DNA of 64,000 nucleotides, taken from positions 1 to 64,000 of the forward strand of contig NZ_JAFEUV020000011.1 in the NCBI RefSeq assembly GCF_017355915.2, given 5' to 3'. This DNA comes from Telluribacter roseus (GTDB taxonomy: Bacteria; Bacteroidota; Bacteroidia; Cytophagales; Spirosomataceae). Shown here in pieces: positions 1 to 47,383 of the stretch. A program made the position numbers and the translations under genes. The notes beneath the pieces were generated by a model. The model did no database searches. It was not told the DNA's origin and saw nothing but the letters and a program-made list of their open reading frames with translations. Positions within the stretch are counted from its first letter, which is position 1, and the number at the start of each line of letters is the position of its first letter.

Positions 1-193
1 ATCAAGGCATTAATAATATGACACCCATCCAAATGGCTCAAAAACAGCATCCGCTGTGGACAAATTTTGCCCTTGCAATAACCTAGTTAACCAATACAGC
101 TAACAGGTAAAAGCCTTGAAGGGGGGAAGGTCTGATCGGTAAGATGGGCAGGTGGGTGTAAAGCAGCAGGAAGTTCCAGCAGTTTACATAACT

Positions 194-228
194 AAAAAAA
201 ATGCCCCTGCATCCAACAATGCAGGGGC
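194..228 (-). terminator. Rho-independent terminator of the cytochrome c/propeller gene
   Basis: A perfect 10-bp inverted repeat (203-212 with 219-228, 6-base loop, GC-rich) is followed on the minus strand by eight T residues (194-201). It lies about 30 bp beyond the stop codon of the gene ending at 261 and closes the minus-strand block. The rest of 1-260 shows no gene that I can support. Confidence 0.85.
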
Positions 229-25837: not shown

Positions 25838-26317
25838 GGATTGTGAGATTAGGACGAGTGATAGAGGTTTAGTTGGCCAATCAATAGGTATAAGGCATAG
25901 ACCTGCATTTATTCATTAGTAAATCCCCTTAAATATATTAAAGTCGGTTTCCTTCCTATCTCATTGTCACCTCAGCTATCTGCCGGTTTACTCATTTGTT
26001 CCTACAGTCGGGCTCTTTTGTTCTCTATGTAGGGAAGGTGAGTATACCGTTGTGCATATGCTTGGTTTCTTAAGAAGTGTAGTAAGTACACTTCTTTATG
26101 AGAATTAAAAGAATTTACTTTTCGCAATTATAGTAATATGTTTAATAAGTGTTGTTGAATAGGTATATTAAAAAATAAAATTCGTATTTGTCTTGCAGCC
26201 TTACTATATAATTGTTTGTTTTACGGCATACTTAATAAATAATATTTTTAAGTAGGTGGCTCTTCCTATCACACAAATAGGGAAATGCTGGTAAAATACT
26301 ATACTAAACCCTTAATC
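25838..26317. promoter_or_regulatory. Divergent promoter region between the two arms of the sugar locus
   Basis: 480 bp, clearly more AT-rich than the flanking genes, between the Nramp-like operon (minus) and the plus-strand arm. It must hold both promoters. It contains a 10-bp inverted repeat at 26072-26096 (separate entry). No gene or RNA is recognisable. Confidence 0.6.
26072..26096. promoter_or_regulatory. 10-bp inverted repeat in the divergent promoter region
   Basis: AAGAAGTGTA (26072-26081) and its perfect reverse complement (26087-26096) are separated by 5 bases. No T-run follows, and it lies about 220 bp before the plus-strand gene, so an operator or leader hairpin is more likely than a terminator. 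The ROK-family regulator at 39589 is a candidate binder. Confidence 0.4.
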
Positions 26318-28459: not shown

Positions 28460-28495
28460 TCAGTTACCTATTCATACCTATCTAACCAGTTCAGA

Positions 28496-29689
28496 ATGAA
28501 TCTTAACCATTATCTGCAACAATACAAGAATAGCCTTCTCGATGACATCATTCCCTTTTGGATGGCTAACTCGGGAGATACAACCTATGGGGGATACTTC
28601 ACCTGCCTGGACCGGGAGGGAAAAGTATTTGACACGGATAAATTTGTGTGGCTGCAGGGCCGCCAGGTATGGTGCTTTGCGATGCTCTATAATAAGGTGG
28701 AACAAAAGCAGGAGTGGCTGGACTTCGCTGTGCAGGGGGCTGAGTTCCTGATCAAACACGGAAGGGACGCCGAAGGCAACTGGTACTTCTCGCTGAATAG
28801 GGAAGGGGCTCCGCTTACCCAACCCTACAATATCTTTTCCGACTGCTTTGCCTGCATGGCCTATGGCCAGCTATATCAGGCTACCCGGAACGAAGAGTAT
28901 GCTCAAATTGCCGTCGATACATTTCACAACATCCTGAAAAGAGCCGATAATCCCAAGGGAATCTATACAAAGGCTTATCAGGGTACCCGTCCTCTGAAGA
29001 GCTTCTCCCTGCCGATGATCCTGTGCAACCTGGTTCTGGAAATTGAGCATCTGCTGAACCCTGAACTGGTGGAGAGCTGCATCTCCAATGGTATACATAC
29101 CGTAATGGATGAGTTCTACCAGCCCGATATGGGTATTATACTCGAAAATATCAATCCTAACGGAACGTTTTCTGATAGCTTTGAGGGGCGACTGGTCAAT
29201 CCGGGGCACGGCCTGGAGGCCATGTGGTTTGTTATGGACCTGGCCGTTCGAAACCAGGATCAGGAGCTGATCAAAAAGGCGGTGGACATCTCCATCAATA
29301 CGCTGGAGTATGGCTGGGACAAGCAGTACGGAGGTATCTTCTACTTCCTGGATGTCAAAGGCCAGCCACCCCTCCAGCTCGAGTGGGATCAGAAGTTGTG
29401 GTGGGTACATATGGAAACGCTCATTACCCTGCTCAAGGGGTACCTGCATACCGAAGACGAGCGGTGCCGGGAGTGGTTTGAAAGGGTACATGCCTACACC
29501 TGGAGCCACTTTGCTGATCCTGAGTTTGGTGAGTGGTATGGCTACCTCAACCGTCAGGGAGAGCCTCTGCTACCGCTGAAGGGTGGTAAATGGAAAGGCT
29601 GCTTCCACGTGCCGCGCGGGCTGTACCAATGCTGGAAGACGCTGGAAGCCATTGCTGAGAAAAAATCTACGAAGATTTTAGATTTCTAA
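28496..29689 (+). CDS. AGE-family sugar 2-epimerase (N-acylglucosamine 2-epimerase/cellobiose epimerase-like)
   Basis: A 397-residue cytoplasmic (alpha/alpha)6 barrel without signal peptide. Family landmarks are WLQGRQVWCFAMLYN (about 53-67), the catalytic-His region NPGHGLEAMWF (about 238-248), QKLWWVHMETL and the C-terminal FHVPRGLYQCW segment. AGE enzymes epimerise the C2 of GlcNAc/ManNAc, free aldoses or cellobiose, and some isomerise aldose and ketose. It lies 5 bp before the MFS transporter, so the imported sugar is probably its substrate. Sequence alone does not separate the sub-activities. Confidence 0.92.
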   Translation: MNLNHYLQQYKNSLLDDIIPFWMANSGDTTYGGYFTCLDREGKVFDTDKFVWLQGRQVWCFAMLYNKVEQKQEWLDFAVQGAEFLIKHGRDAEGNWYFSLNREGAPLTQPYNIFSDCFACMAYGQLYQATRNEEYAQIAVDTFHNILKRADNPKGIYTKAYQGTRPLKSFSLPMILCNLVLEIEHLLNPELVESCISNGIHTVMDEFYQPDMGIILENINPNGTFSDSFEGRLVNPGHGLEAMWFVMDLAVRNQDQELIKKAVDISINTLEYGWDKQYGGIFYFLDVKGQPPLQLEWDQKLWWVHMETLITLLKGYLHTEDERCREWFERVHAYTWSHFADPEFGEWYGYLNRQGEPLLPLKGGKWKGCFHVPRGLYQCWKTLEAIAEKKSTKILDF

Positions 29690-29694
29690 CCCCT

Positions 29695-30948
29695 ATGGCC
29701 AATATAGTCTCACCCGACCTAGTAGTTTCGGATGCCTCCGACCGGGAGCAGCAGAATTATACGCCTGCCTTAGTCTCGCTGGCGATCCTGTACTTCATGA
29801 TGGGCTTTATTACCTGCCTGAACGACACGCTGGTCCCCTTTTTCAAGAAAGGCTTTACCCTGAGCTATACCGATTCGTCACTGGTACAGTTCTACTTCTT
29901 CCTGACCTACGGGATCATGTCCATTCCGGCGGGTAAGATCGTCGAGAGGGTGGGATACAAGCACGGGATGGTACTGGGCTTTGCCATAGCCGCATTGGGC
30001 GCGTTCCTGTTCTTCCCGGCCTCCCTGCTGCATCAGTACTACCTCTTTCTGGCCGCTCTGTTTGTGGTAGCCATTGGGATCGTACTGTTACAGGTGGCGG
30101 CTAATCCGTACATTACGGTACTCGGGCCCGCCAAGACAGCCTCTTCGCGCCTTACCCTTATTCAGGGGGTGGGTTCGCTGGGTACAACGGTAGCTCCCCT
30201 GTTTGGAGCCTACTTCATACTGGCGCCACTACAGGATACGCAGGTCGGCAGCGAAGCGGTCCGGTTTCCGTACCTGGGCATTGGCCTGGTATTGCTGCTG
30301 ATTGCCCTGATTGTGTACTTCCTGTCGCTTCCTGCGATCGCTACCCGGCAGGAGAAGCGGGTTGAGGCCTCCGGCGATACTAAAACGGTGTTTTCGTTCC
30401 GAAACCTCAACCTGGGGGCGCTGGCCATATTTGTATACGTGGGGGCTGAGGTGTCGGTAGGTACATTCCTTACCAACTATATAGCTGATCTGTTACAAAT
30501 TACAGAGAGCGAATCCAATACCTACGTGGCGCTTTACTGGGGGAGCATGATGGTCGGGCGTATGATCGGCTACTTTGGGCTAAAGGTATACCGCCCCTCC
30601 GTGGTACTGGCTGCCTGTGCCACCCTGGCCATAGCGCTGATCCTGGTTTCGGTCAGTGCTGAAGGGTACCTGGCCGTATGGACCATGATCGCGGTAGGGC
30701 TATGCAATTCGGTCATGTTTGCCATTATCTTTTCCCTGTCCGTAAGCGGACTGGGTACCTACACCACCCGCGCTTCGGGTATCCTGTCAACCGCTATTGC
30801 CGGTGGGGCTATCATCTCGTTCTGCCAGGGCGTATTGATTGATAATTTCTCCTGGACGGTGGCCTTTATGGTACCACTGGCCTGCTATGTATATATCCTG
30901 TTTTACGGCCTGAACGGCTACAAGTCCAGGTACAGTGAAATGAACTAA
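29695..30948 (+). CDS. FucP/GluP-type MFS sugar transporter
   Basis: A 417-residue protein with 12 predicted membrane helices of the FHS sugar-proton symporter family. TM1 has the GFITCLNDTLVP motif with the conserved Asn-Asp. TM4 has LQVAANPYITVLGP, where FucP of E. coli has Glu in place of Gln, a change common in Bacteroidota paralogues. It probably moves a monosaccharide or disaccharide across the inner membrane for the AGE epimerase 5 bp upstream. Substrate class (fucose, glucose, GlcNAc, sialic acid and others) cannot be chosen. Confidence 0.92.
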   Translation: MANIVSPDLVVSDASDREQQNYTPALVSLAILYFMMGFITCLNDTLVPFFKKGFTLSYTDSSLVQFYFFLTYGIMSIPAGKIVERVGYKHGMVLGFAIAALGAFLFFPASLLHQYYLFLAALFVVAIGIVLLQVAANPYITVLGPAKTASSRLTLIQGVGSLGTTVAPLFGAYFILAPLQDTQVGSEAVRFPYLGIGLVLLLIALIVYFLSLPAIATRQEKRVEASGDTKTVFSFRNLNLGALAIFVYVGAEVSVGTFLTNYIADLLQITESESNTYVALYWGSMMVGRMIGYFGLKVYRPSVVLAACATLAIALILVSVSAEGYLAVWTMIAVGLCNSVMFAIIFSLSVSGLGTYTTRASGILSTAIAGGAIISFCQGVLIDNFSWTVAFMVPLACYVYILFYGLNGYKSRYSEMN

Positions 30949-30972
30949 GTATATGGCTTACTGCATAGTACT

Positions 30973-32580
30973 ATGAAAAAGTTCTCCTTTCTTCTGGCTG
31001 TTTTGCTTGCCCTACGAGTAGTTGCCGAGGCACAGACACCTGCTTTCAGCACCAGGGTACTGCTGATCCCGCTGGACGATCGCCCTACCAGTACCCAGTT
31101 CACGACCCGCATGGGACTGATTGGCAATGCCGAGGTAGTCACTCCGCCGCGCGAATTACTGGGCCGGTTCACTACGGCCGGACAGTCTGACCAGATCATC
31201 GAGTGGGCCAGAGCGCAGGATCTCCAATCGTATGATGTGGTGATCGTAGCTCTGGATATGCTGGCCTACGGCGGTTTGGTAGGTTCACGGATGCACCGGG
31301 TGTCTTCGGAGGAAGCCCTGAAGCGGGTAGAAGCCCTGCGTGAGCTGAAACAGCGTATGCCACGGGCCAGACTCTACGCGCAGAACGTCGTCATGCGGCT
31401 GGCCCCAACCCCCGGCGATAAAAACGAAGCCTACCGGGTAAAGCTGGAGCACTGGGCCGAGATATCGGTAGCCCATGATGCCAAATCAAAAGAAGAAACG
31501 GCGGCGCTCGAACGCGAAATACCGGAGGAGGTACTGAATGATTATAAAATGGCCCGCCGCCGTAACCTGCTGACCAACCTGAAAGCCCTTGAGCTGGTAC
31601 AGGAGGGCGTGATTGATTACCTAATCCTTTCGCAGGACGATGCCAAGCCGCAGGGAGTTCACGTAGCCGATCGGGAAAAACTCATTGCCGAAGTACACCA
31701 AAAAGGGTTGACCCAGAAGGTAGCGGTACAGCCGGGAGCCGATGAGGTATCTATGTTACTGCTGGCGCGGGCACTTACGCAGTACCACACGTACCAGCCA
31801 AAGATAAAGGCCGTGTTTTCCTCCGCTCAGCAGGCCGCGCAAACCATGCCCTTTGAGGACCGCCCCCTGCGCCAGACGGTAGGCTACCACATCAGGGCCA
31901 CGGGAGCTCAGGAGGTAGAGAGTGAGCAGGAGGCGGACATATTATTCTACGTATATACATCCAGGTTAGAAGAAGGCCGCTCTGAATCCTTTGCCCGGGA
32001 GATAGAAAATAAGATCGGGCAGGGAAGGCAAGTCATCGTGGCGGATATAGACCCGGTGGGGGATGTGCAGGGGGGAGATCCGCAGTTTATGTTGGCCCTT
32101 ATGAAGCGTAACTTATTTCCCCGATTGAATGGCTTCGCCTCCTGGAATACCGCCGGCAATACCATTGGTACAGCCCTTCCGCACGGGGTCGTATTCTCAC
32201 TTGCTACTCAGAAGCTGTTATCCAGGAAAGAACTGGCCAGTCGCATCTGGTCGGCGCAGCACTGGTTCCTGATCCACCGTGTCATGGACGACTACTACTT
32301 CCATACCTTGGTGCGGGAAAAGACCAATGCGTACCTGGATCAACGGAAGCGGAGCTCGGTCATTATGAGTGATGAAAAGACCCGGCAGGCTCAGGTGTAC
32401 AGCCAAAAACAGATGGATACCTATTTCAAAGATTTCACCCGGCAGTACCTCCGTACCGTCAATGCCAGTCGTCAGATACCCGTGCGGTGTCAGATACCAT
32501 CAGAAATGCAGTTTTCGCTGCCCTGGAACCGGATGTTCGAAGCCGATATCCACTTTGATATTACCTGTAAAGCCTTATAG
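30973..32580 (+). CDS. DUF4127-family exported protein
   Basis: A 535-residue protein with signal peptide (cleavage after VVAEA, near residue 20) and the DUF4127 domain over the rest. The family hallmark LIPLDDRPTST appears near residues 33-43, followed by VALDMLAYGGLVGSR (about 93-107). A DDA motif sits in LSQDDAKPQGVH. The fold looks alpha/beta, resembling nucleotide- or sugar-handling domains, but the function of DUF4127 is not known to me. It is 24 bp after the MFS gene and 153 bp before susC, so it belongs to the same locus and may act on the same glycan in the periplasm. Confidence 0.85.
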   Translation: MKKFSFLLAVLLALRVVAEAQTPAFSTRVLLIPLDDRPTSTQFTTRMGLIGNAEVVTPPRELLGRFTTAGQSDQIIEWARAQDLQSYDVVIVALDMLAYGGLVGSRMHRVSSEEALKRVEALRELKQRMPRARLYAQNVVMRLAPTPGDKNEAYRVKLEHWAEISVAHDAKSKEETAALEREIPEEVLNDYKMARRRNLLTNLKALELVQEGVIDYLILSQDDAKPQGVHVADREKLIAEVHQKGLTQKVAVQPGADEVSMLLLARALTQYHTYQPKIKAVFSSAQQAAQTMPFEDRPLRQTVGYHIRATGAQEVESEQEADILFYVYTSRLEEGRSESFAREIENKIGQGRQVIVADIDPVGDVQGGDPQFMLALMKRNLFPRLNGFASWNTAGNTIGTALPHGVVFSLATQKLLSRKELASRIWSAQHWFLIHRVMDDYYFHTLVREKTNAYLDQRKRSSVIMSDEKTRQAQVYSQKQMDTYFKDFTRQYLRTVNASRQIPVRCQIPSEMQFSLPWNRMFEADIHFDITCKAL

Positions 32581-32733
32581 CAACGCATATTCCTAACCCT
32601 TACCTATAACTTTTCTTTTCCTAACCCTTCCTTTTACCTTAAATGACCGACGCCAATGACAAAACCCAAAGTACCCAAAGTACCCAAACCCACTAATGAC
32701 CCCTATTTTCCTAAACCCCTAATCAAACCTTCT
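32581..32733 (+). promoter_or_regulatory. C-rich, G-poor leader of susC
   Basis: About 150 bp with very few G on the plus strand (about seven in 32591-32733 by hand count). Short repeats occur: CCTAACCCTT twice near 32591-32630 and CCCAAAGTA-type units in tandem near 32665-32690. The RNA would be almost unstructured. It may be the 5' leader of susCD; no promoter match was found. Confidence 0.45.
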
Positions 32734-35700
32734 ATGCTAAACCTGTTTACGAAGAAATGGCAGATGAGTTGGCTGCTTATCCTGCTATTGTCGGTTTGTC
32801 AGCAGTACTTGGCTACTGCCCAAACCCAAACCCTGCGCGGAACAGTGACTGATCCCAAAGGGGAGGCCCTGCCGGGTGTGACTGTAGTAGTAAAAGGTAC
32901 CACTACCGGAACCACCACCTCATCGGACGGATCGTACCTCCTGAATGTAACCCCCGGACCCGGTACGCTGGTGTTTTCATTTATGGGAATGGAATCTAAA
33001 GAGTTAGCATATAGCGGCCCCGGTGTGTTCAATGTATCTCTGTCCGAAGACCTCAAAACACTGAATGAAGTAGTAGTAGTAGGATACGGTACCCAGAAGA
33101 AAGTAAACCTGACCGGATCGGTATCCGTAGTAGATGGTGAAATGCTTACCAACCGTCAGGTAGCCTCTACCTCACTGGCGCTGCAGGGAGCGGCGCCGGG
33201 GGTTACGATCACCCAGCAGTCGGGGGTACCCGGTGGTGATGCCGGTACCATTCGTATACGGGGTATTGGTTCAATCAATGCCGGACAGAACCCGCTGATC
33301 CTGGTGGACAACGTGGAGATGAGCCTGGATGCCATTGACCCTAACAACATTGCCAGTATCTCCATCCTGAAAGATGCCGCCGCGGCGGCCGTGTACGGTT
33401 CAAGGGCGGCCAACGGGGTAGTATTGATAACGACCAAGCGGGGCGCCAGTGGTGTCAATGTCAGCTACAACACCTACGTTACCAAGCAGGAGCCTACCGA
33501 CCTTCCCCGGAAGGTAAACGCACTGGATCACATGAAGCTGTGGGATGAAGCGCAGGTAAATAGCGGATTGCCTCCGGCATTTACCCAGCAGATTGCGGAG
33601 TATGAGCAGCTGGGCCCCGATAATATGGCTCGTTTCAACACCGACTGGAAGGCTCTGGTACTGACCAACAACGGTCTGATGCACAACCACAACCTTAACG
33701 TATCGGCGGGTACTGACCGTATCAAGGTATTCGCTTCGGGAAGCTTCCTGGATCAGAACGGTCTTACGGCCAATACCAACTACAAGCGTACAGATATGCG
33801 CTTTAACACCGATCTGAACCTTACAAAAAGGCTGACGGCTTCTATGGACCTGGTACTAAACCGTACCAACCGTCTGTGGCCGGGTCAGGGATCACCCGAA
33901 ACCATCATCAACCGTATGCTGGGCTATCCGGCGGTGGCTCCCGGTCGCTACAATACCGGCGAGTGGGGCGAAGGCTGGTCTAACATCAACCCGGCGGCTC
34001 AGGCCGAAGACGGTGGTTTCAGCCGGAACATCGTTGACTCCCGTATCCTGAAAGGTACCCTGACCTATACTCCGATCGAAGGCCTGGAGCTGTTGGCTAC
34101 GTACAGTACCAACTACTACACGGGTAATGCCCGCACCTTTACCGATCAGTACCGTATCTACGTAGCTGATCCTGCCAATAATACGTTACTGTACGCCCGT
34201 CCGTGGCCGGCGCTGAACTCCCTGGCCGAAAGACGTTCCGAAAACGTTCAAAACCTGTTCCGTACGCAGGCTACCTACAACAAGTCACTGGGCGATCATA
34301 ACTTCACCGTACTGGGTGGTTTCAGTACTGAAGATTTCAAATCAGTATTTATCAGCGCATCCCGTCAGAACCTGCTTTCACCTGACCGGCCTTATCTGGA
34401 TAGTGGTGATCCACTCGGACAAACGCTGGGCGGTGGTGAACACCGGTTTTCGATGGTATCGGCGTATAGCCGCGTAAACTATAATTACAAGGAGAAGTAC
34501 CTCCTGGAGGTTAACGGTCGCTGGGATGCTTCGTCACGCTTCAGACAGAACAACTGGTGGAAGCTGTTTCCATCCGTATCGGCCGGATGGCGTATTTCGC
34601 AGGAAAATTTCTGGTCGGGCCTCAGCAATATCGTAGGCGATGCCAAGATCCGGGCTTCCTATGGTACACTGGGTAACCAGGCGTTGGTTAACAATGGAGA
34701 ACCTAGCTACTACCCTACCTACTCCCTGTTTGAAACCGGTCCTGCCTACAACTACTACTTCAATGACGCAGTCAATGCCGGGTATGCCCTGACTACGGCC
34801 GCTAACCCTAACATCCGCTGGGAAACCTCCCGGATTCTAGACCTTGGTGCTGACTTTGGCCTGCTCAACAACCGTTTGACTCTGACGGCTGACTTCTTCC
34901 AGCGCGACATCGTGGACATGCTGCAGCGTGTACCTGTACCATCGTACGTAGGTCTGGCTTCGCCGTTCGTCAATGTAGGTACCATGCGTAACACCGGCTG
35001 GGAATTTGGCGCTGGCTGGAGAGATAAGATCGATGACTTCAGCTACCAGGTACAGCTCAACCTGTCGGATGTAAAGAATAAAGTCATCAACAACGGAGGT
35101 ACGCCTATTATCGCGGGAGCCCGTATCCAGCAGGAAGGCTACGCGCTGGATTCGTACTACGGATATATAGCGGATGGCTTGTTCCAGACAGAGGAAGAAG
35201 TTAAAAGTGCGCCTTTCCACTTCGGCAACACCAAGCCAGGTGACATTCGCTACCGCGATATCAGCGGTCCCAATGGTACTCCGGACGGCAGGATCGATAA
35301 CTACGACCGTACCATCCTCGGTAACTACTTCCCCCGTTATGAGTACAGCCTCAACCTGAGCTCGCAGTACAAGGGCTTTGACCTGACCGTATTCTTCCAG
35401 GGGGTAGGCAAGCGTGACAACTACCTGTCGGGTACCGGATCGCAGCCTTTCTATTCGGCAGCGTACCAGGGGTCCATGTACGAGCACCAGAAAGACTACT
35501 GGACTCCCGAGAATCCCAATGCAGCGTATCCCCGTCTGACGGCTAACAGCATTGCCAACAACTACGTGGTGTCATCGTACTGGATCCGTTCGAGCGCGTA
35601 CCTCCGCCTCAAAAACCTGGTACTGGGCTATACAGTACCTGGCGCGGTAAGCAAGAAGATCGGTATTGGCTCGGCGCGTATCTATGCCAGCGGCCAGAAC

Positions 35701-35814
35701 CTCTTTACTTGGGACAAATTCTTCCCCGGCTTTGATCCTGAGCAGCGCGATACGGGAGGTACCTTCTACCCGATCATGAGAACATACACGGTGGGTCTTA
35801 ACCTCAAATTCTAA
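32734..35814 (+). CDS. SusC/RagA-family TonB-linked outer-membrane transporter
   Basis: About 1026 residues from the ATG at 32734; a frame from 32656 adds 26 Pro/Lys-rich residues before the signal peptide, and I prefer the shorter form. The order is signal peptide (ending near LATAQ), carboxypeptidase-regulatory-like domain (LRGTVTDPKGEALPGVTVV), TonB box with LNEVVVVGYGTQKKVNLTGS, plug, and beta-barrel ending YTVGLNLKF. There is no STN domain, unlike the other SusC (6100-9525), so it is not coupled to a FecR. SusD follows after 5 bp. Together they import a glycan or similar ligand for this locus. Confidence 0.95.
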   Translation: MLNLFTKKWQMSWLLILLLSVCQQYLATAQTQTLRGTVTDPKGEALPGVTVVVKGTTTGTTTSSDGSYLLNVTPGPGTLVFSFMGMESKELAYSGPGVFNVSLSEDLKTLNEVVVVGYGTQKKVNLTGSVSVVDGEMLTNRQVASTSLALQGAAPGVTITQQSGVPGGDAGTIRIRGIGSINAGQNPLILVDNVEMSLDAIDPNNIASISILKDAAAAAVYGSRAANGVVLITTKRGASGVNVSYNTYVTKQEPTDLPRKVNALDHMKLWDEAQVNSGLPPAFTQQIAEYEQLGPDNMARFNTDWKALVLTNNGLMHNHNLNVSAGTDRIKVFASGSFLDQNGLTANTNYKRTDMRFNTDLNLTKRLTASMDLVLNRTNRLWPGQGSPETIINRMLGYPAVAPGRYNTGEWGEGWSNINPAAQAEDGGFSRNIVDSRILKGTLTYTPIEGLELLATYSTNYYTGNARTFTDQYRIYVADPANNTLLYARPWPALNSLAERRSENVQNLFRTQATYNKSLGDHNFTVLGGFSTEDFKSVFISASRQNLLSPDRPYLDSGDPLGQTLGGGEHRFSMVSAYSRVNYNYKEKYLLEVNGRWDASSRFRQNNWWKLFPSVSAGWRISQENFWSGLSNIVGDAKIRASYGTLGNQALVNNGEPSYYPTYSLFETGPAYNYYFNDAVNAGYALTTAANPNIRWETSRILDLGADFGLLNNRLTLTADFFQRDIVDMLQRVPVPSYVGLASPFVNVGTMRNTGWEFGAGWRDKIDDFSYQVQLNLSDVKNKVINNGGTPIIAGARIQQEGYALDSYYGYIADGLFQTEEEVKSAPFHFGNTKPGDIRYRDISGPNGTPDGRIDNYDRTILGNYFPRYEYSLNLSSQYKGFDLTVFFQGVGKRDNYLSGTGSQPFYSAAYQGSMYEHQKDYWTPENPNAAYPRLTANSIANNYVVSSYWIRSSAYLRLKNLVLGYTVPGAVSKKIGIGSARIYASGQNLFTWDKFFPGFDPEQRDTGGTFYPIMRTYTVGLNLKF

Positions 35815-35819
35815 GAAAC

Positions 35820-37514
35820 ATGAAAAAGAAGATTTTATACGCAGCAGCCCTTTGCCTCACGATGTTCGTGTCGCAGGGATGTCAGGACTACCTGGAGCAG
35901 GTTCCGCTGGATGCTCCCGCCACCGGGCAGTTCTTCAATAACGAAACCGAAATGAATGCGGCGCTCAACGCCATCTATAAGTCAGCTTACTGGAATACGG
36001 GTAATACGGCCTATCAGTCTATCATGGACGGCTGGACGGATATTGCCCTGCTGCGGGCGGTAGAGCTGGGCGAGGGTAACTTCGACGTATTTAATGCGCA
36101 CTCGGCGGCTATATGGCGGCTGGCCTATACGACTATTCAACGCTCCAACACCATGCTGGATGGTATGGCGAAAGGGAAAGATCAGGTACCGGCCGCAACC
36201 TACAACCGGCTGGAGGCCGAAGCCCGCGTACTTAGGGCCTGGTCGTACTTCTACCTCACCTTTATGTTCGGCGAAGCTCCTCTGATCACCAAGCCCCTGA
36301 CACCGGATGAGTTCTACACCCAGAAGCGTACTCCCAAAGCCGAGCTGATCAAGTTTATCTACGATGAGCTGGATGCCGCTGCAAACGTACTGGCGTGGGC
36401 ACCTACCCAGCGGGGCCGGGTCAGCAAAGCAGTAGCCTTGGGTATCAAATCGAGAGCTGCGCTTTACAACAAGGAGTACGCCCTGGCCGCCAGTACCGCT
36501 AAGCAGGTCATTGATGGCGCCGGACTTGACCTGAACCCTAACTTCGGTGACCTCTTTACCCGGGTTGGGCAGGCTCCCAACGCCGGAAAGGAAATCATGT
36601 GGGAGATCCTGTATTCTGATGCTGATCCTAACAATACCAACTGGCTGCCCCTGGGTAGTATATCCCGGGCGGCCGGAGGTCAGTCGGGTCGTTTCCCGCA
36701 GCAGCGCCTGGTGGATATGTTCGAGGCCAAAGACGGAAAGCGTATTGACGAGTCGGCGGTATACGATCCCCAAAACCCGCGTCTCAACCGCGACCTGCGC
36801 CTCAAGTATACGGTGGCCATGCCCGGTGATACCATCAGCATGAACCTGGCAACGGTAGTGTACGACATCTACAAACCAACTACCTCGTTCCGAAATGCGG
36901 ATGGTACCTGGACTACCCGCGCCAACGCCGATTATGACAATGCCTTCGGCCCCGCCAAGAGTGGAGTAGGTCTGCTATGGGCCAAGTACACCCAGACCAA
37001 CGAGAATGCCTTCCAGGCCCGGGTTAACTTTATCCTGATGCGTTACGCCGAGATACTGCTGACCTACGCCGAGGCCAAGATTGAGCTGGGGGAGCTGGAT
37101 GCATCGGTGATCAACGCGATCAACAAGGTCAGAAGAAGAGCCAAACAGCCCGAAGTACCTGCCGCTATTCAGAACGATCAGAATGAGCTGCGTGAGCTGA
37201 TCCGCCGTGAGCGCGTGGCTGAGCTGGCCAAAGAGGGCTTCCGCTGGTTTGACATACGCCGCTGGGAAATTGCCGATATCGTCATGCCTCAGCAGGTAAT
37301 GGGTATCGCCAAGAATCCGGCTACTATGCCTCCGGTACCTAATTTCAAGAAGACGGCCAAGCACGACCTGAACAGCATACCTACCTATGAAGGGCAGGAA
37401 AGCCTGCGCATGGTGCGGGAGAACCGTTTCTGGTACCCCAAGCTCATGTTGCTGCCGGTGCCTCAGGCCGAGCGGGATATTAACCCCGGACTTACCCAAA
37501 ATCCGGATTGGTAA
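35820..37514 (+). CDS. SusD/RagB-family outer-membrane nutrient-binding lipoprotein
   Basis: A 564-residue lipoprotein with lipobox Cys near residue 21 (FVSQGCQDYLEQVPLDAP), TPR-like repeats, and the C-terminal RagB region (LIRRERVAELAKEGFRWFDIRRW). It is the partner of the SusC encoded 5 bp upstream and binds the ligand at the cell surface. A clear Rho-independent terminator follows, so it ends the transcription unit. It differs strongly from the other SusD in the window, which suggests another ligand. Confidence 0.95.
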   Translation: MKKKILYAAALCLTMFVSQGCQDYLEQVPLDAPATGQFFNNETEMNAALNAIYKSAYWNTGNTAYQSIMDGWTDIALLRAVELGEGNFDVFNAHSAAIWRLAYTTIQRSNTMLDGMAKGKDQVPAATYNRLEAEARVLRAWSYFYLTFMFGEAPLITKPLTPDEFYTQKRTPKAELIKFIYDELDAAANVLAWAPTQRGRVSKAVALGIKSRAALYNKEYALAASTAKQVIDGAGLDLNPNFGDLFTRVGQAPNAGKEIMWEILYSDADPNNTNWLPLGSISRAAGGQSGRFPQQRLVDMFEAKDGKRIDESAVYDPQNPRLNRDLRLKYTVAMPGDTISMNLATVVYDIYKPTTSFRNADGTWTTRANADYDNAFGPAKSGVGLLWAKYTQTNENAFQARVNFILMRYAEILLTYAEAKIELGELDASVINAINKVRRRAKQPEVPAAIQNDQNELRELIRRERVAELAKEGFRWFDIRRWEIADIVMPQQVMGIAKNPATMPPVPNFKKTAKHDLNSIPTYEGQESLRMVRENRFWYPKLMLLPVPQAERDINPGLTQNPDW

Positions 37515-37537
37515 TAGTGAAGTATAATTGAATATAA

Positions 37538-37575
37538 ATACCTTCACCTTCGCTTGTAAGGTGAAGGTATGTTTT
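37538..37575 (+). terminator. Rho-independent terminator after susD
   Basis: Arms 37538-37550 and 37558-37570 form a perfect 13-bp stem with a 7-base loop, followed by GTTTTT. It lies between susD and the FAD oxidoreductase gene, only about 25 bp before the latter, so that gene is either expressed by read-through or from a promoter overlapping the hairpin. Confidence 0.8.
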
Positions 37576-37595
37576 TATAACTAGTGACATCATCC

Positions 37596-39323
37596 ATGAA
37601 ACGTAGAAACTTTATTGAATTGGTATCGTCCGGTGGAGGTATGCTTGCCGCAGGGTCGTTACTACCCTCTTCTGCCCTGGCAGAAAGTATAGAGAAAGCC
37701 GGTAGTCCTACTGCTGCCCGGGCTCGTGAGCTCAAAGCCGATGTGGTGGTAGCCGGGGGGGGGCTGGGGGGATTTGCGGCGGCGCTGGCTTCCCTGCGCA
37801 ACGGCCTGACGGTAATACTCACCGAAGAGACCGACTGGATCGGCGGGCAGATCACGCAGCAGGGAGTACCCCCCGATGAGCACCAGTGGATCGAAACCCA
37901 CGGCGCGCCTCAGTCGTACCGCGACTACCGCAATGCCGTCCGAGACTACTACCGGAAGTACTACCCACTGACGGATGAGGCCCGGGCTCGCAAAAACCTG
38001 AATCCGGGTGATGGCTCAGTTTCCCGCATCTGCCACGAGCCGCGCGTAGCGCTGGCGGTACTGATGGACACGCTCGCTCCCTACCTGAGTAGTGGTAAGC
38101 TAACCCTGCTGCTCGAGCACAAGGTTACAGCAGCCGACGTAACGGGTGATAAGGTAAGGGCGCTGAAAGTCCTGAACCGCCGCAGTGGCAATGAAGTAGT
38201 ACTGACGGCTCCGTATTTTGTGGATGCGACCGAACTGGGTGATCTGCTTCCCCTGACGAAGACGGAGTTCGTGACGGGTACTGAATCCAAAAAAGAAACC
38301 GGCGAACTGCACGCTCCCGAGGTAGGTAACCCCCTGAACAACCAGGCTTTCACCATGTGCTACGCCATTGACTACGTAAAAGGCGAAAACCACGTCATTG
38401 ATAAGCCCAAAGAGTATAGTTTCTGGCGGAACTTCGTGCCCAAAATGACCCCCGCCTGGTCGGGCCGGATGCTGGACCTTTCCTACTCCAACCCGCGTAC
38501 GCTGGAGCCCAAAGCGCTGGGCTTCCACCCGGAAGGCATCAAGACCAACGCTGACCTGAACCTGTGGAACTACCGGAAGATCATCAACAAGAACAACTTT
38601 AATCCCGGTACCTACCCCGGCGATATTACCATCGTCAACTGGCCCCAGAACGACTACGTACTGGGCAACATCGTAGAGGTAAGCGATAAGGAATTCAACA
38701 AACACGTAGACCGGGCCAAGCAGCAGAGCCTGTCGCTCCTGTACTGGCTGCAGACCGAGGCACCACGTCCCGATGGGGGCCAGGGATGGGCGGGGCTGCG
38801 CCTGCGCAACGATATCATGGGCACCGAAGATGGCCTGGCCAAATACCCCTACGTACGCGAAGCCCGCCGGATCAAAGCACTCTTTACGGTACTGGAAGAG
38901 CACGTAGGAGCCGAAAACCGGGCGATGATCACCGGCAAGAAAACCGGCAATACCTCCGCTGAGTTCTACGACAGCGTGGGGGTAGGGTACTACCACATCG
39001 ACCTCCACCCGAGCTCGATGGGAGTCAATTACGTCGACTTTGGCTCGCTGCCTTTCCAGATTCCGCTGGGTTCGCTCATTCCACAAAGGGTAGAAAACCT
39101 CCTGCCTGCCAACAAGAACATCGGTACCACCCACATCACCAACGGATGCTTCCGTCTGCACCCGGTGGAGTGGAGTATTGGTGAAGCAGTAGGAATGCTG
39201 GTTGCTCATTCTTTGAAGAACAATGTGATACCCCGGGCGGTACGGGAAGACAAGCAAAAACTTGCGGAGTTTCAGCGGGTAGTACGTGCGCAGGGCGTAG
39301 AGACCCAGTGGCCGCAATCATAA
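37596..39323 (+). CDS. Exported FAD-dependent oxidoreductase (FAD_oxidored family)
   Basis: About 575 residues from the ATG at 37596 (a GTG lies four codons earlier). The N-terminus has a Tat-like start (MKRRNFIELVSSGGGMLAAG). A Rossmann FAD motif, VVVAGGGLGGFAAALAS, lies at about 48-64, followed by EETDWIGGQITQQG typical of PF12831 proteins, where the cofactor binds. The C-terminal part has the second FAD contact (NKNIGTTHITNGCFRLHPVEWSIGEAVG). Members of this group lie in Bacteroidota carbohydrate loci and are thought to oxidise sugars or related compounds; the substrate is not known. It follows susD after a terminator. Confidence 0.88.
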   Translation: MKRRNFIELVSSGGGMLAAGSLLPSSALAESIEKAGSPTAARARELKADVVVAGGGLGGFAAALASLRNGLTVILTEETDWIGGQITQQGVPPDEHQWIETHGAPQSYRDYRNAVRDYYRKYYPLTDEARARKNLNPGDGSVSRICHEPRVALAVLMDTLAPYLSSGKLTLLLEHKVTAADVTGDKVRALKVLNRRSGNEVVLTAPYFVDATELGDLLPLTKTEFVTGTESKKETGELHAPEVGNPLNNQAFTMCYAIDYVKGENHVIDKPKEYSFWRNFVPKMTPAWSGRMLDLSYSNPRTLEPKALGFHPEGIKTNADLNLWNYRKIINKNNFNPGTYPGDITIVNWPQNDYVLGNIVEVSDKEFNKHVDRAKQQSLSLLYWLQTEAPRPDGGQGWAGLRLRNDIMGTEDGLAKYPYVREARRIKALFTVLEEHVGAENRAMITGKKTGNTSAEFYDSVGVGYYHIDLHPSSMGVNYVDFGSLPFQIPLGSLIPQRVENLLPANKNIGTTHITNGCFRLHPVEWSIGEAVGMLVAHSLKNNVIPRAVREDKQKLAEFQRVVRAQGVETQWPQS

Positions 39324-39352
39324 CTACTGTTTACAGGAAACGTACTCGTAGC

Positions 39353-39393
39353 AAAGCTGGCTGGATGTCCGATTGGGGTGGTCCAGCCAGTTT
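39353..39393 (+). terminator. Terminator hairpin after the FAD oxidoreductase
   Basis: CTGGCTGGA (39357-39365) pairs with TCCAGCCAG (39382-39390), extended by A-T pairs on the outside, followed by TTTAGTAG. It is about 30 bp after the stop codon. The T-run is short. Confidence 0.6.
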
Positions 39394-39534
39394 AGTAGCG
39401 GCTCAGCCGTACCTTTACATCATGTGTCATGGAGTAACTATCCATTTATTAATACAAAGTTCTTTTTAGTTACTTTTTATTAGATAGTATTAGTATAAAC
39501 TTTGTATAAAAAATGCCTGATCCGGCACTTGTTA

Positions 39535-39566
39535 TTGATAAATGTTGGAATAAGTAAGTATGTTTG
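39535..39566 (+). promoter_or_regulatory. Bacteroidota-type promoter of the ROK regulator
   Basis: TATGTTTG (39559-39566) is an exact match to the Bacteroidota -7 consensus TAnnTTTG. A TTG at 39535-39537 lies 21 bp upstream and fits the -33 element. The start codon follows 22 bp downstream, giving a short leader. Confidence 0.55.
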
Positions 39567-39588
39567 AATAAAATGTAAAGGTTATTGT

Positions 39589-40794
39589 ATGAACAAGACT
39601 AGTAGCGTACCCGTAGTTGCTCAAAGACAGAATAATTTAAAAAAATCAGTGTTGGGTTTTTTCGCTACGAACGGTAATGCCACCATACCAGATCTTTCTA
39701 AAGAACTCAATTTTAGTGTACCCAAAATCACTTCGCTTGTCAATGAACTGATTCAGGACAGCCTGATTCAGGACTATGGCAAAGTGGATTCGACGGGAGG
39801 GCGTCGGCCTAATCTATACGGGCTGATCCCGGATTCGGCATTTTTTATAGGCGTCGAAGTAAAGCAGAGTCACATCAATATCGGTTTGTCGAATCTCCAG
39901 TGCGAACTGGTAAGAGTAACCGAAGAAATAGAATACAAGCTGGATAATACCCAGGAGTCGCTGGACAGCCTTTGTGAGGCCATCGTCCAGTTTATCGGCG
40001 GCCTTACGATAAATAAGGCAAACATACTGGGCATTGGTATCAACCTGTCGGGACGTATCAACTACAAGACCGGGCACAGCTACAGCTTTTTCCATTTTGA
40101 CGAGCGTCCGCTCAGCCAGATCATCGAGAGCAAAGTAGGTATACCCGTATTCCTGGAGAATGATTCCAGGGCGATGGCCTACGGGGAGTTTTGTATGGGG
40201 GTAGTCAAGGATGAAAAGAACGTACTGTACCTGAACCTGGGCTATGGTATTGCGGTGGGCATTATGCTCAATGGCCAGCTCTACTACGGCAAGTCCGGCT
40301 ACGCGGGCGAATTTGGGCACATGCCCCTCTTTGATAATGAGCAGATCTGCCACTGCGGGAAGAAAGGCTGCCTGGAAACCGAAGCCTCAGGCTGGGCGCT
40401 GACCCGTATGTTCCGCGAGAAGCTCCTGGAAGGCTCTTCTTCGGTACTATCGCTCAAAAATATAGCCCCCGAAGACGTAGTGATGGAAGATATCATCTGG
40501 GCCGCCAAGAACGATGACGTATTAGCCATTGAGCTTATTGCCAAAATAGGTGAAAAGCTGGGGCGAGGTATAGCGCTGCTGATCAACCTGTTTAACCCGG
40601 AGCTGGTCGTACTGGGCGGAAGCCTCGCTACGACCGAAGATTACCTGCGCCTGCCGATCAAAACTGCCATCAATAAGTACTCGCTTAGCCTGGTAAACAA
40701 CGATACCGATCTTAAAATGTCGAAGCTGGGCGAACGGGCCGGCATCATAGGTGCCTGCTTACTGGTACGTAACCGCCTCTGGGCTTTGTTATAG
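39589..40794 (+). CDS. ROK-family transcriptional regulator with N-terminal winged helix
   Basis: A 401-residue protein with a DNA-binding winged helix (about 15-85, ATIPDLSKELNFSVPKITSL) and a ROK sugar-sensing domain (about 85-395). The ROK zinc motif CHCGKKGCLE is complete (about 251-260), and the ENDSRA segment with catalytic-type Asp is kept. The N-terminal ATP motif DxGxT is changed (GVEVKQS), so kinase activity is unlikely. The expected role is an Mlc/NagC/XylR-like repressor that senses a sugar from this locus. Its own promoter and a downstream hairpin separate it from neighbours. Confidence 0.92.
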   Translation: MNKTSSVPVVAQRQNNLKKSVLGFFATNGNATIPDLSKELNFSVPKITSLVNELIQDSLIQDYGKVDSTGGRRPNLYGLIPDSAFFIGVEVKQSHINIGLSNLQCELVRVTEEIEYKLDNTQESLDSLCEAIVQFIGGLTINKANILGIGINLSGRINYKTGHSYSFFHFDERPLSQIIESKVGIPVFLENDSRAMAYGEFCMGVVKDEKNVLYLNLGYGIAVGIMLNGQLYYGKSGYAGEFGHMPLFDNEQICHCGKKGCLETEASGWALTRMFREKLLEGSSSVLSLKNIAPEDVVMEDIIWAAKNDDVLAIELIAKIGEKLGRGIALLINLFNPELVVLGGSLATTEDYLRLPIKTAINKYSLSLVNNDTDLKMSKLGERAGIIGACLLVRNRLWALL

Positions 40795-40819
40795 ATATTA
40801 GCTATCTACCTTATCGTAT

Positions 40820-40855
40820 ACAAGTGCTTTTCTCAATCAAAAGAAAGGTACTTGT
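40820..40855 (+). promoter_or_regulatory. 14-bp RNA hairpin before the propeller-cytochrome gene
   Basis: Arms 40820-40833 and 40842-40855 pair over all 14 positions if two G-U pairs are allowed, with an 8-base loop. No T-run follows. It lies in the 83-bp gap, 22 bp upstream of the next ATG. The G-U pairs form only in plus-strand RNA, which favours an RNA element (attenuator or leader structure). Confidence 0.45.
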
Positions 40856-40877
40856 GTACTTAACATTATAAGTACTC

Positions 40878-43562
40878 ATGTCTACTAAACTCTTAAACCT
40901 GGTGGTGGGAGGAGGGCTTCTGCTTGCTTCTTTCACCGCTCCTCAGAAACCCTTATCCTCCTTACCCCTTTCGATAGAAGCCATCCCCGACAGCAGCCGA
41001 TTCACCCACATGATGCTGGCGCAGGGACTGGATGAACCCATGGAAATGGCCATCCTGCCCAACCTGAACGTGGTGATCGTAGAGCGGAAGGGGGGCGTAC
41101 GCATGTACGATGCGCAGGAAAAGCAGCTCAAGACCCTGGCCCACCTCAACGTTTTCAGCGGTATCGAAGACGGACTGCTTGGAGTTGCCATTGACCCTGA
41201 TTATACGAATAATAGCTGGATCTACTTCTTTTACGGAGTGGGGGGCGATAAGGCAATTACCCGCCTCTCCCGGATGGAACTTCGGGGGGATCAGCTGTTG
41301 CAGTCTACCGAGAAAGTACTGCTTGAATTTCCTACCCAGCGCAAGTACTGTTGCCATTCGGCGGGGTACCTGCGGTTTGATACCAACGGCAATCTATTCA
41401 TCTCGACCGGGGACAATACCAACGCCGAGGAAACTGAGGGCTATACCCCGGTAGACGAGCGTCCCGGTCGTGAACTGTCCGATGACCAGGCTACTGCCGC
41501 CAACACCAATGACCTGCGGGGTAAGATTCTCCGGATCAAGCCCCAGCCGGATGGTAGCTATTCGATACCAGATGGTAACCTGTTTCCGAAGGATGGGAGC
41601 AAAGGCCGCCCTGAGATCTACATCATGGGTAGCCGTAATCCCTTCCGGGTATCCATCGATCCCAAGAACGGGTACGTATATTGGGGAGATGTAGGCCCTG
41701 ATACCAAAGTGCCTTCGGTCGATGGCGGTGTAATGAGTTTTGATGAGATCAACCAGGCTCGTAAGCCCGGCTTCTTCGGCTGGCCCTACTTCCTGGGTAA
41801 CAATGAAGCCTTTCCCAAGTACGATTTCGCAACCAAGAAAGAGGGACCCAGGAAAGATCCGCTTCGCCCAATCAATGACTCGCCCAATAACACGGGGATC
41901 CGGGAGCTTCCCCCCGCGCAGCCTCCCATGATCTGGTACGCCAAGGGTGAATCGAAGCGCTTTCCGCTGGTAGGCAAGGGGGGAGCCAGTGCCATGGCCG
42001 GTCCGGTCTATTATAGCGACCTGTACCCCAATGCGCCCTACAAGCTACCCGACTACTACAACGGCAAGCTATTTATCTATGACTGGATCCGGAAGTGGAT
42101 CATGGCGGTTACGCTGGATGAAAACGGCAACTACGCGAGCATGGAGCCGTTCCTGCCCCACCTGCAGGTAGTAGCACCCATGGATATGCAGATTGCTCAC
42201 GACGGGGCGGTGTACCTGCTGGCCTACGGTACCAACTGGTTTGCCAAAAGTGCCGATGCCGGACTTATACGCGTGGAGTATACCGAAGGTAACCGTAATC
42301 CGCTTGCCTCTATCAAAGCCAGCCAACTCTACGGAGCCGCGCCTCTGACCGTGACACTATCCGGGGCTGATTCCAAAGACCATGATCCGGATGATAAGCT
42401 CTCTTTTGAATGGAAAATAGGTACTAAGAAGGTACAGGGGAAGGAAGTGAAGCATACCTTCACTAAACCAGGCGTATATGATGTGGCCCTTACCGCCGCT
42501 GATCAGCACGGTGGAATGGGGGTAGCCACAGTACAGATCAAGGTAGGTAATACCCCTCCCGATGCCCGTATCAGTACCAGTGCCAACCAGAGCTTCTACT
42601 GGGATAATACCGTACTGGATTACAAAGTAGCTATCAAAGATCCGGAGGACAAGCAGATTGATCCGGCTCGGGCAACGGTATCATTTACCTACCTGCCCTT
42701 TGGCAAGGATATAGCCAGCGCCGTTAGCGGAGCTACGCACGGAAATATCCAGCATGCTGAAGCCGAAAAACTATATGCCTCCCTGGACTGCCGTGCCTGC
42801 CATACGATGGACTCTAAGTCCATTGGTCCCAGCCTGAAAGATATCGCCAAACGCTACAACGGCAAAGCCGGTGCAGTTGAGGCACTGGTCGATAAGGTGA
42901 TCAAAGGAGGTAGCGGTAACTGGGGGGCTTATGCGATGTCGGCGCACCCCGACCTACCGGTCGAAGATTCCAAAGCCATTGTAAACTACATACTTTCTCT
43001 GGATGCCAAGCCCTCCAGTCTGCCGCTTAGTGGTAAGCTCAAGCTCACTGATCACGTTGGAAAGGGTAACGAAGGTGCCTACGTACTGCTGGCCAGCTAC
43101 CAGGATAAAGGGGCCAATGGCATAGAGCCTCTGACGGCGAGGACCCATATGGTACTTCGGAACCCCAAGGTCGAATTTGAAGATTACGAAGGGGGCAACG
43201 TGGGAGTTGTGATTGCTACCGAGATGACCGGTTTTATATCCTACATCCGCCGGGTCACTCCGGGGCGGTACGTCAGCTTCAACAAGATCGATCTAACGCA
43301 TATTAAGTCTATTACCTACCGGTTGCTGGAAGAAGGTACCGGCGGTACTCTGGAGGTACGACTGGGTAGGGTAGATGGGCCGCTGGTGAGCAGCCTGCAG
43401 ATACCGGCTGGGAAGGCCGCTGACTACACCAAAGGCTGGAAAGATAGGGTAGCTCCGGTGATGCCTACTAAAGGGGTACATGACCTGTACTTTGTCTTCA
43501 AAAACGAAAGCGGAGGGCAGAAAGAGATGTTCTTCCTGGACTGGATGCAGTTCAACAAGTAG
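40878..43562 (+). CDS. PQQ-type sugar dehydrogenase-like propeller with PKD, cytochrome c and C-terminal CBM-like domains
   Basis: An 894-residue exported protein. The order is signal peptide (about 1-20), a glucose/sorbosone-dehydrogenase propeller (about 40-470; EDGLLGVAIDPDY, GSRNPFRVSIDP), a PKD domain (about 475-560; ADSKDHDPDDKLSFEWKIGT), a linker sandwich, a cytochrome c domain (about 625-715) with CRACH at 638-642 and likely Met in YAMSAHP, and a beta-sandwich like CBM6 (about 745-894). Proteins of this architecture act outside the cytoplasm, probably oxidising a bound carbohydrate. The cytochrome is of a different subtype from those in the other two propeller proteins. A terminator follows. 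Confidence 0.9.
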   Translation: MSTKLLNLVVGGGLLLASFTAPQKPLSSLPLSIEAIPDSSRFTHMMLAQGLDEPMEMAILPNLNVVIVERKGGVRMYDAQEKQLKTLAHLNVFSGIEDGLLGVAIDPDYTNNSWIYFFYGVGGDKAITRLSRMELRGDQLLQSTEKVLLEFPTQRKYCCHSAGYLRFDTNGNLFISTGDNTNAEETEGYTPVDERPGRELSDDQATAANTNDLRGKILRIKPQPDGSYSIPDGNLFPKDGSKGRPEIYIMGSRNPFRVSIDPKNGYVYWGDVGPDTKVPSVDGGVMSFDEINQARKPGFFGWPYFLGNNEAFPKYDFATKKEGPRKDPLRPINDSPNNTGIRELPPAQPPMIWYAKGESKRFPLVGKGGASAMAGPVYYSDLYPNAPYKLPDYYNGKLFIYDWIRKWIMAVTLDENGNYASMEPFLPHLQVVAPMDMQIAHDGAVYLLAYGTNWFAKSADAGLIRVEYTEGNRNPLASIKASQLYGAAPLTVTLSGADSKDHDPDDKLSFEWKIGTKKVQGKEVKHTFTKPGVYDVALTAADQHGGMGVATVQIKVGNTPPDARISTSANQSFYWDNTVLDYKVAIKDPEDKQIDPARATVSFTYLPFGKDIASAVSGATHGNIQHAEAEKLYASLDCRACHTMDSKSIGPSLKDIAKRYNGKAGAVEALVDKVIKGGSGNWGAYAMSAHPDLPVEDSKAIVNYILSLDAKPSSLPLSGKLKLTDHVGKGNEGAYVLLASYQDKGANGIEPLTARTHMVLRNPKVEFEDYEGGNVGVVIATEMTGFISYIRRVTPGRYVSFNKIDLTHIKSITYRLLEEGTGGTLEVRLGRVDGPLVSSLQIPAGKAADYTKGWKDRVAPVMPTKGVHDLYFVFKNESGGQKEMFFLDWMQFNK

Positions 43563-46663: not shown

Positions 46664-47383
46664 TTAATAACGGAGCAACTTCTTCAGATAAGCCGGATAG
46701 CTCTTTCCGTCCAGGCTGCCGTCGCCTTTGGTGATACTGTCGCCAAAGCACACCAGGCGGTCGTGTGGGATTCGGTTATTGATCAGGTGCTGATGGATAG
46801 CCACGGCCATGGTACGGTAGCCTTCGGGGGTAGGATGTATCCCGTCTGTTTTCTTACTATTCGCTTCGTTCTGGATCAGGCTGTCGGCGTCTTCCCCAAC
46901 GTTTCCTACTGTTTCAAATACGTGATGCATGTCCAGCAGCGAGAGCTGATACTCTGCGGCCAACCTTTTGATTACTTCATTTACTTGCTCTTTTCTAACC
47001 CTGTGTCCTTCGGGCTCATAAAATGTGCGGGGGTGACGCGTCATCAGGTAGGGCTCGTGCGCAGGCAGGATGGTCATGAGCAGGATGTTGCTGTTAATGC
47101 CCTTGATGCGGGTTATTATTTCCCGGAGGTTTTTCTCGTATTGGGGGAGGGGGATGTGCTTCTGGCTGTTCATGTCGTTGGTGCCGGCTTTGAGTATAAC
47201 CAGGTTAGGCTTGTGAGCCAGACAGTCTTTTTCGATCCGGGCTAGTAGGTCGGCGGTGTTATTTCCCCCCACACCAGCGTTGATGATAGATGGCTTTTCA
47301 GCGGATGGATGTATCAGAGATTGGGCAGGAGTACATAGCAGGGGCGAGGCCAGGGTAGCCTTCAGAAATTTTCTACGGCGCAT
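46664..47383 (-). CDS. SGNH/GDSL-family hydrolase with circularly permuted motif order
   Basis: A 239-residue exported esterase-like protein with a Tat-like N-terminus (MRRRKFLKATLAS). The four SGNH motifs are intact, but block I comes last: block II Gly (NAGVGGNN, 35-42), block III Asn69 in GTND, block V Asp180 and His183 in DGIHPTPEGY, and only then block I with nucleophile Ser216 in CFGDSITKGDG, followed by the helix SYPAYLKKLL that normally leads into block II. The usual N-terminal strand is therefore at the C-terminus. All catalytic residues are present, so it should be active as an esterase, deacetylase or lipase-like enzyme. The start at 47383 is an ATG. The gene is alone, about 280 bp downstream of a minus-strand kinase gene. 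Confidence 0.9.
   Translation of the reverse strand: MRRRKFLKATLASPLLCTPAQSLIHPSAEKPSIINAGVGGNNTADLLARIEKDCLAHKPNLVILKAGTNDMNSQKHIPLPQYEKNLREIITRIKGINSNILLMTILPAHEPYLMTRHPRTFYEPEGHRVRKEQVNEVIKRLAAEYQLSLLDMHHVFETVGNVGEDADSLIQNEANSKKTDGIHPTPEGYRTMAVAIHQHLINNRIPHDRLVCFGDSITKGDGSLDGKSYPAYLKKLLRY

Follow-up and report, generated by a model that had tools for sequence, protein, structure and literature searches.

Sequence evidence for a circularly permuted SGNH-fold family with block I at the C-terminus, including a predicted exported esterase of Telluribacter roseus

The window, a 64,000-nucleotide stretch at the start of a contig from Telluribacter roseus (family Spirosomataceae; genome size 6.3 Mb), contains on its minus strand, at 46664-47383, a gene for a predicted SGNH hydrolase of 239 amino acids, delimited by its open reading frame and by its orthologues. 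The frame runs from an ATG start to a TAA stop with no internal stop, in agreement with the clean C-terminal reading claimed in an earlier note on this DNA, and the motifs lie where that note placed them. The conserved Ser, Gly, Asn, His and Asp of the SGNH superfamily are all present, in the order II-III-V-I instead of the canonical I-II-III-V with its N-terminal GDS. Block II, NAGVGGNN (residues 35-42; 47258-47281), includes Gly40, which by likeness to TesA-type enzymes we take to be the oxyanion glycine, and is followed by block III, GTND (residues 67-70; 47174-47185), with Asn69. Block V, DGIHP (residues 180-184; 46832-46846), contributes Asp180 and His183, and block I, GDSIT (residues 214-218; 46730-46744), with the predicted nucleophile Ser216, occurs only near the C-terminus. 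The protein then ends in a SYPAYLKKLL segment (46673-46705), which is now the C-terminal helix; in canonical members, the equivalent helix comes right after block I. Together, block I and this segment correspond to positions 1-27 of the Pfam profile Lipase_GDSL_2 (PF13472).

The N-terminus carries an RRxFL Tat-like export signal (residues 1 to ~24; 47312-47383), in which R3, R4, F6 and L7 are invariant in nine aligned proteins. By regular expression, the same signal recurs in 39 of 76 permuted domains, and TatC is encoded in the T. roseus genome. The stop-to-stop frame, at 252 amino acids, is 13 codons longer than the open reading frame, and therefore holds no in-frame hidden N-terminal block I. 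On one side of the gene is a kinase-like gene, so named by eye, and on the other a gene for a thioredoxin-fold protein.

The arrangement is shared by eight distinct orthologues with 58-85% identity (Telluribacter humicola, L021; four from Chitinophaga; one from a Persicitalea metagenome-assembled genome; two others from Spirosomataceae), which have nearly the same end points, and the C-terminal GDSIT is invariant across the nine aligned proteins. A search for homologues with GDS at the C-terminus only, as the earlier note had suggested, yielded 77 permuted domains from three phyla (loci L036-L130, the T. roseus gene and L021-L026, with identical sequences removed). Asp180 and Asn175 are kept in all 77, and Ser216, Gly40, Asn69 and His183 in 76 each; one domain (L115b) lacks Ser, His and Asn together. 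Judged from these sequences, the motif arrangement is far beyond chance. Five loci excluded by the coverage filter (L083, L087, L089, L102 and L121) and the G1064 domain, which belongs to another locus, lie outside this set. In those five loci the permuted gene is broken or internally deleted, and some of the genomes also have an intact copy. The domain at L115 without catalytic residues, in a 1448-amino-acid open reading frame on the minus strand, is probably a pseudo-enzyme; the same locus has an intact permuted copy.

The distribution of the family was surveyed with a profile of the junction from block V to block I, at an E-value cut-off of 1e-6 (1e-8 for the searches of the Chitinophaga family and of the class of G349). 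The resulting genome counts are lower bounds, because many genomes had just part of their first-look candidates scored. A full junction is present in at least 28 of 222 Spirosomataceae genomes and, in a phylum-wide sample of 395 genomes, in at least four (T. roseus and three distant ones), with two more matching in block I only. Chitinophagaceae, the family of Chitinophaga sp. CF118, matched in at least 18 of 294 genomes, 16 of which have an intact gene. Among Verrucomicrobiota, the phylum of the metagenome-assembled genome at L028, at least 21 of 145 genomes matched (16 with a full junction), and among Planctomycetota, the phylum of the Planctomycetaceae record L027, at least 11 of 149, of which three had a full junction, in one case interrupted by a stop. 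In the 117 genomes of the class of G349, the junction was matched in G349 alone among the candidates scored. G539 and G648, whose matches have identical contig positions, probably represent a single genome entered twice. The permuted arrangement thus occurs in Spirosomataceae, Chitinophagaceae, other Bacteroidota, Verrucomicrobiota and Planctomycetota. A plasmid collection gave one match, at 37% coverage, and nothing more; viral contigs gave 13 loci, with matches confined to query residues 26-210 at 24-55% identity. A 29th Spirosomataceae match, L061, is to block I only, in a 795-amino-acid protein where two SGNH domains of canonical order precede a C-terminal region resembling, by eye, an alpha/beta hydrolase.

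Against the natural T. roseus protein, Lipase_GDSL_2 scores 96.5 bits (cut-off 32.9), with the match split in two: the core aligns to profile positions 35-177, and the C-terminal fragment alone, aligned to positions 1-27, reaches 29.2 bits, just below the cut-off. When the block I segment is moved to the front, the score rises to 108.4 bits and the match becomes a single stretch covering positions 1-177 of 178; restoring the order of a distant member (L062) likewise raises its score from 77.7 to 91.7 bits. With a profile built solely on 32 rows of canonical order, each of the 77 domains reached its top single-stretch score in restored order, ahead of its natural order and of three arbitrary cuts made in the same sequence (medians of 134.6 bits in restored order, 109.4 in natural order and 68.8-97.5 at the three other cut points). 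Because the PF13472 match comes in two pieces, the protein would receive a generic GDSL hydrolase label and the permutation would go unnoticed. The earlier suggestion that standard motif searches may miss such a subfamily needs correcting for Pfam, since PF13472 matches the T. roseus protein well above its cut-off. Support for the circular permutation that the note proposed, with relocated termini, comes from the order of the motifs, from conservation and purifying selection, and from the profile tests and family distribution.

An AlphaFold2 model built from seven sequences (mean pLDDT 75.2, pTM 0.77) predicts five strands of at least three residues, at 32-35, 61-65, 99-103, 148-150 and 209-213, and a final helix at 229-237; the block I part is of moderate confidence (pLDDT ~66 for residues 211-230). 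In a weaker model of the L026 orthologue (mean pLDDT 67.7, below 50 at residues 220-229), these strands and the final helix recur. The closest PDB folds to the T. roseus model are SGNH hydrolases (1yzf: Z 15.6, rmsd 2.1 over 151), acetylxylan and other esterases among them. The VIA structural alignments mostly end near residue 206, short of block I. One row, 3mil_B, places model residues 28..239 on chain positions 1..218, a hint of a permuted match that is not counted as evidence since it consists of ranges alone. When the junction profile was run against PDB sequences, no best stretch in the best 60 of 61 matches spanned both the block V and block I halves.

The T. roseus protein resembles canonical SGNH/GDSL enzymes (PF13472; TesA, Axe2 and 1yzf-like proteins) in its four blocks, its GDS, GxND and DxxH motifs and its predicted fold core, and differs in that its termini lie between helix alpha-1 and block II. 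The earlier note called an active permuted esterase an unusual event; permuted SGNH enzymes are nevertheless already known, since AlgX, AlgJ, PatB1 and WssI have been described as circularly permuted SGNH proteins in which the His block comes first, in the order H-S-G-N (PMC9487903, PMC4148444, PMC5697884, PMC10302187). The cut is different in those proteins. As described there, the order letters are H-S-G-Y in AlgJ and AlgX, which have GTSYS, DxH and a Tyr replacing the block III Asn, and H-S-G-D in WssI, whereas the T. roseus protein reads G-N-H-S and has GDSIT, DGIH and GTND blocks. PatB1, of the DHHW family, is likewise reported there to combine the H-S-G-N order with KDS, DXRY and TDHHW motifs, none of which matches the T. 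roseus pattern; TDHHW and KDS are absent from its sequence. In the literature searched, which covered few subscription papers and no bioRxiv preprints, no description of a G-N-H-S permuted form was found. By its sequences, the G-N-H-S family is a large one whose cut differs from those of the known permuted SGNH families.

Gene neighbourhoods were compared at 27 loci, chosen from junction matches and not a random sample, with neighbours assigned by similarity to genes at L023 and L026, where the FAD proteins belong to PF12831. A FAD_oxidored-type gene lies at most 300 bases away on the same strand in 20 of the 27, and SusC, SusD and FAD genes all occur within 6 kb in 18. Each of the four Chitinophaga loci shows a 4-base overlap between the SGNH gene and its FAD neighbour. 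At L145, a permuted copy adjoins a GH92 gene, and at L147 a distant copy is located inside an amino-sugar cluster. The adjacency to FAD_oxidored and, usually, SusC/SusD points to glycan O-deacylation. Such neighbours are absent at the T. roseus and T. humicola loci, and the glycan role is therefore weakest for the T. roseus gene itself. The domain is also found in large proteins of 1156-1807 amino acids (L111, L113, L114, L116, L112 and L117), where it is joined to DUF6259, to CBM_4_9 or to an extended N-terminal region. Four of these, 1156-1209 amino acids long and from Verrucomicrobiota and Planctomycetota, have it N-terminal to DUF6259; in a 1351-amino-acid protein, it is followed by CBM_4_9; and in an 1807-amino-acid protein, it is C-terminal. 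Given these varied fusions, the domain moves as a unit.

Taken together, these features make it very probable that the T. roseus protein is an exported SGNH-fold serine esterase whose strand beta-1, block I and helix alpha-1 have shifted from the N-terminus to the C-terminus, that it probably acts in glycan O-deacylation, and that the family arose through what is likely one permutation. A short linker at about residues 204-208 would connect the former C-terminal helix to the former N-terminal strand, and the new N-terminus, with its signal peptide, would sit just ahead of block II. Ser216, His183 and Asp180, now contained in a stretch of 37 residues, would form the usual triad, and Gly40, Asn69 and the Ser216 amide the oxyanion hole; both this spatial proximity of the motifs and the esterase activity are predictions. 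Outside the cytoplasm, the enzyme may strip glycans of O-acyl groups, probably O-acetyl, and, in most relatives examined, would do so alongside a SusC/SusD transporter and a PF12831 oxidoreductase. The NCBIfam model AxeA1 gives a match of 53.3 bits, far under its 700-bit cut-off.

An alternative reading takes the C-terminal GDSIT for what is left of a second, truncated SGNH domain or of a neighbouring gene that became fused, and supposes that block I of the first domain has disappeared. Tandem SGNH domains do occur, as in L061, where two are accompanied by a third region. Against this, the end point is almost constant in the eight orthologues, Ser216 is retained in all but one of 77 domains, and dN/dS relative to T. 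humicola is 0.041 for the block I segment, 0.049 for the core and 0.42 for the signal region (a simple Nei-Gojobori count on one gene pair, with synonymous sites near saturation). The low value for the segment and its conservation among the orthologues are strong evidence that this is not a second domain in decay. In ~600 bases on either side of the T. roseus gene and six orthologues, profile search in three frames of the gene's strand turned up no remnant of another block I or II (best E-value 1.7), and the restored segment and core form one continuous profile match. The truncated-second-domain reading, which the earlier note had named as a way to refute the permutation, is already refuted by conservation over three phyla, and we regard it as extremely improbable. 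A further reading, also unlikely if less markedly so, accepts the permuted fold and makes the protein an acyltransferase of the kind of AlgX, PatB1 and WssI instead of a hydrolase. The known permuted SGNH proteins are described as O-acetyltransferases; those enzymes nevertheless depart from the canonical blocks as outlined above, whereas the G-N-H-S family retains canonical GDS, GxND and DxxH, and esterases are among the nearest folds to the T. roseus model. In incidental inspection of the neighbourhoods, no membrane acyltransferase partner came to notice.

As to the origin of the G-N-H-S order, a tree of 32 canonical domains and 45 permuted domains, hand-picked from the 77, has a branch that sets the permuted rows apart from the canonical ones, with a support of 87/96, which lies under the starred level, and keeps them together in 86% of 200 bootstrap trees. 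The canonical rows were mostly picked by similarity to the restored-order profile, and canonical sampling is therefore biased. It could be that the permutation arose more than once and that the family is polyphyletic, since deep branches are poorly supported and an 80-row tree to which three long-branch canonical rows (L109, L180 and L198) were added demands two changes. We nonetheless consider multiple origins improbable: without those three rows, the permuted domains fall on one branch side, and all 77 share the cut point and an invariant Asn175 ahead of block V. A single event, in an ancestor of the clade now found in three phyla, is most likely, as the simplest reading of the sequences, and is not proven. 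No intermediate with block I on both sides of the core was flagged among open reading frames of at least 100 amino acids at the loci examined; the same survey, duplicates included, gave 131 frames with core then block I, 50 with full canonical order and one with core followed by the full pattern. The best canonical-order match to the restored-order profile, at 124 bits (the next canonical match scores 104), is an SGNH domain in a 546-amino-acid protein reached through the Verrucomicrobiota search (L167, from G964). It shares with the permuted family a PYL.RHP...Y stretch and differs in its I-II-III-V order and in a further N-terminal region ahead of the domain.

A broader proposal, which we put forward tentatively, is that one ancient permutation founded an as yet unnamed G-N-H-S esterase family in three phyla, whose members form a new carbohydrate esterase family, coupled to a dedicated set of FAD_oxidored, SusC and SusD and directed at a specific acylated glycan. 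If true, the G-N-H-S order gathers the triad into a single C-terminal cassette. A natural permutation fixed in a large, conserved and apparently active family would be a useful natural experiment, in which the same active site can be compared in canonical and permuted forms. It would also represent a second permuted SGNH topology, distinct from that of AlgX and PatB1 and with a strong sequence signature, and possibly a new carbohydrate esterase family linked to conserved glycan-uptake loci. More generally, profile annotation can mask circular permutations.

The window also contains, at 26285-43562, a glycan/amino-sugar cluster encoding a 724-amino-acid protein without a Pfam match, GlcNAc_2-epim, MFS, DUF4127, SusC-like (TonB plug), SusD and FAD_oxidored proteins, a ROK regulator and a GSDH/cytochrome c/CBM6 protein. 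It resembles the L147 cluster, to genes of which three of its own are 66%, 67% and 54% identical, and this L147-like cluster lies ~6-20 kb from the permuted gene. Its FAD_oxidored gene (37584-39323) was considered as a lost partner of the permuted gene and rejected, given a patchy 28% identity to the SGNH-linked form. At two other loci (L026:5762-7798 and L134:5553-7562), the esterase-adjacent FAD_oxidored proteins carry a C-terminal Golvesin_C domain.
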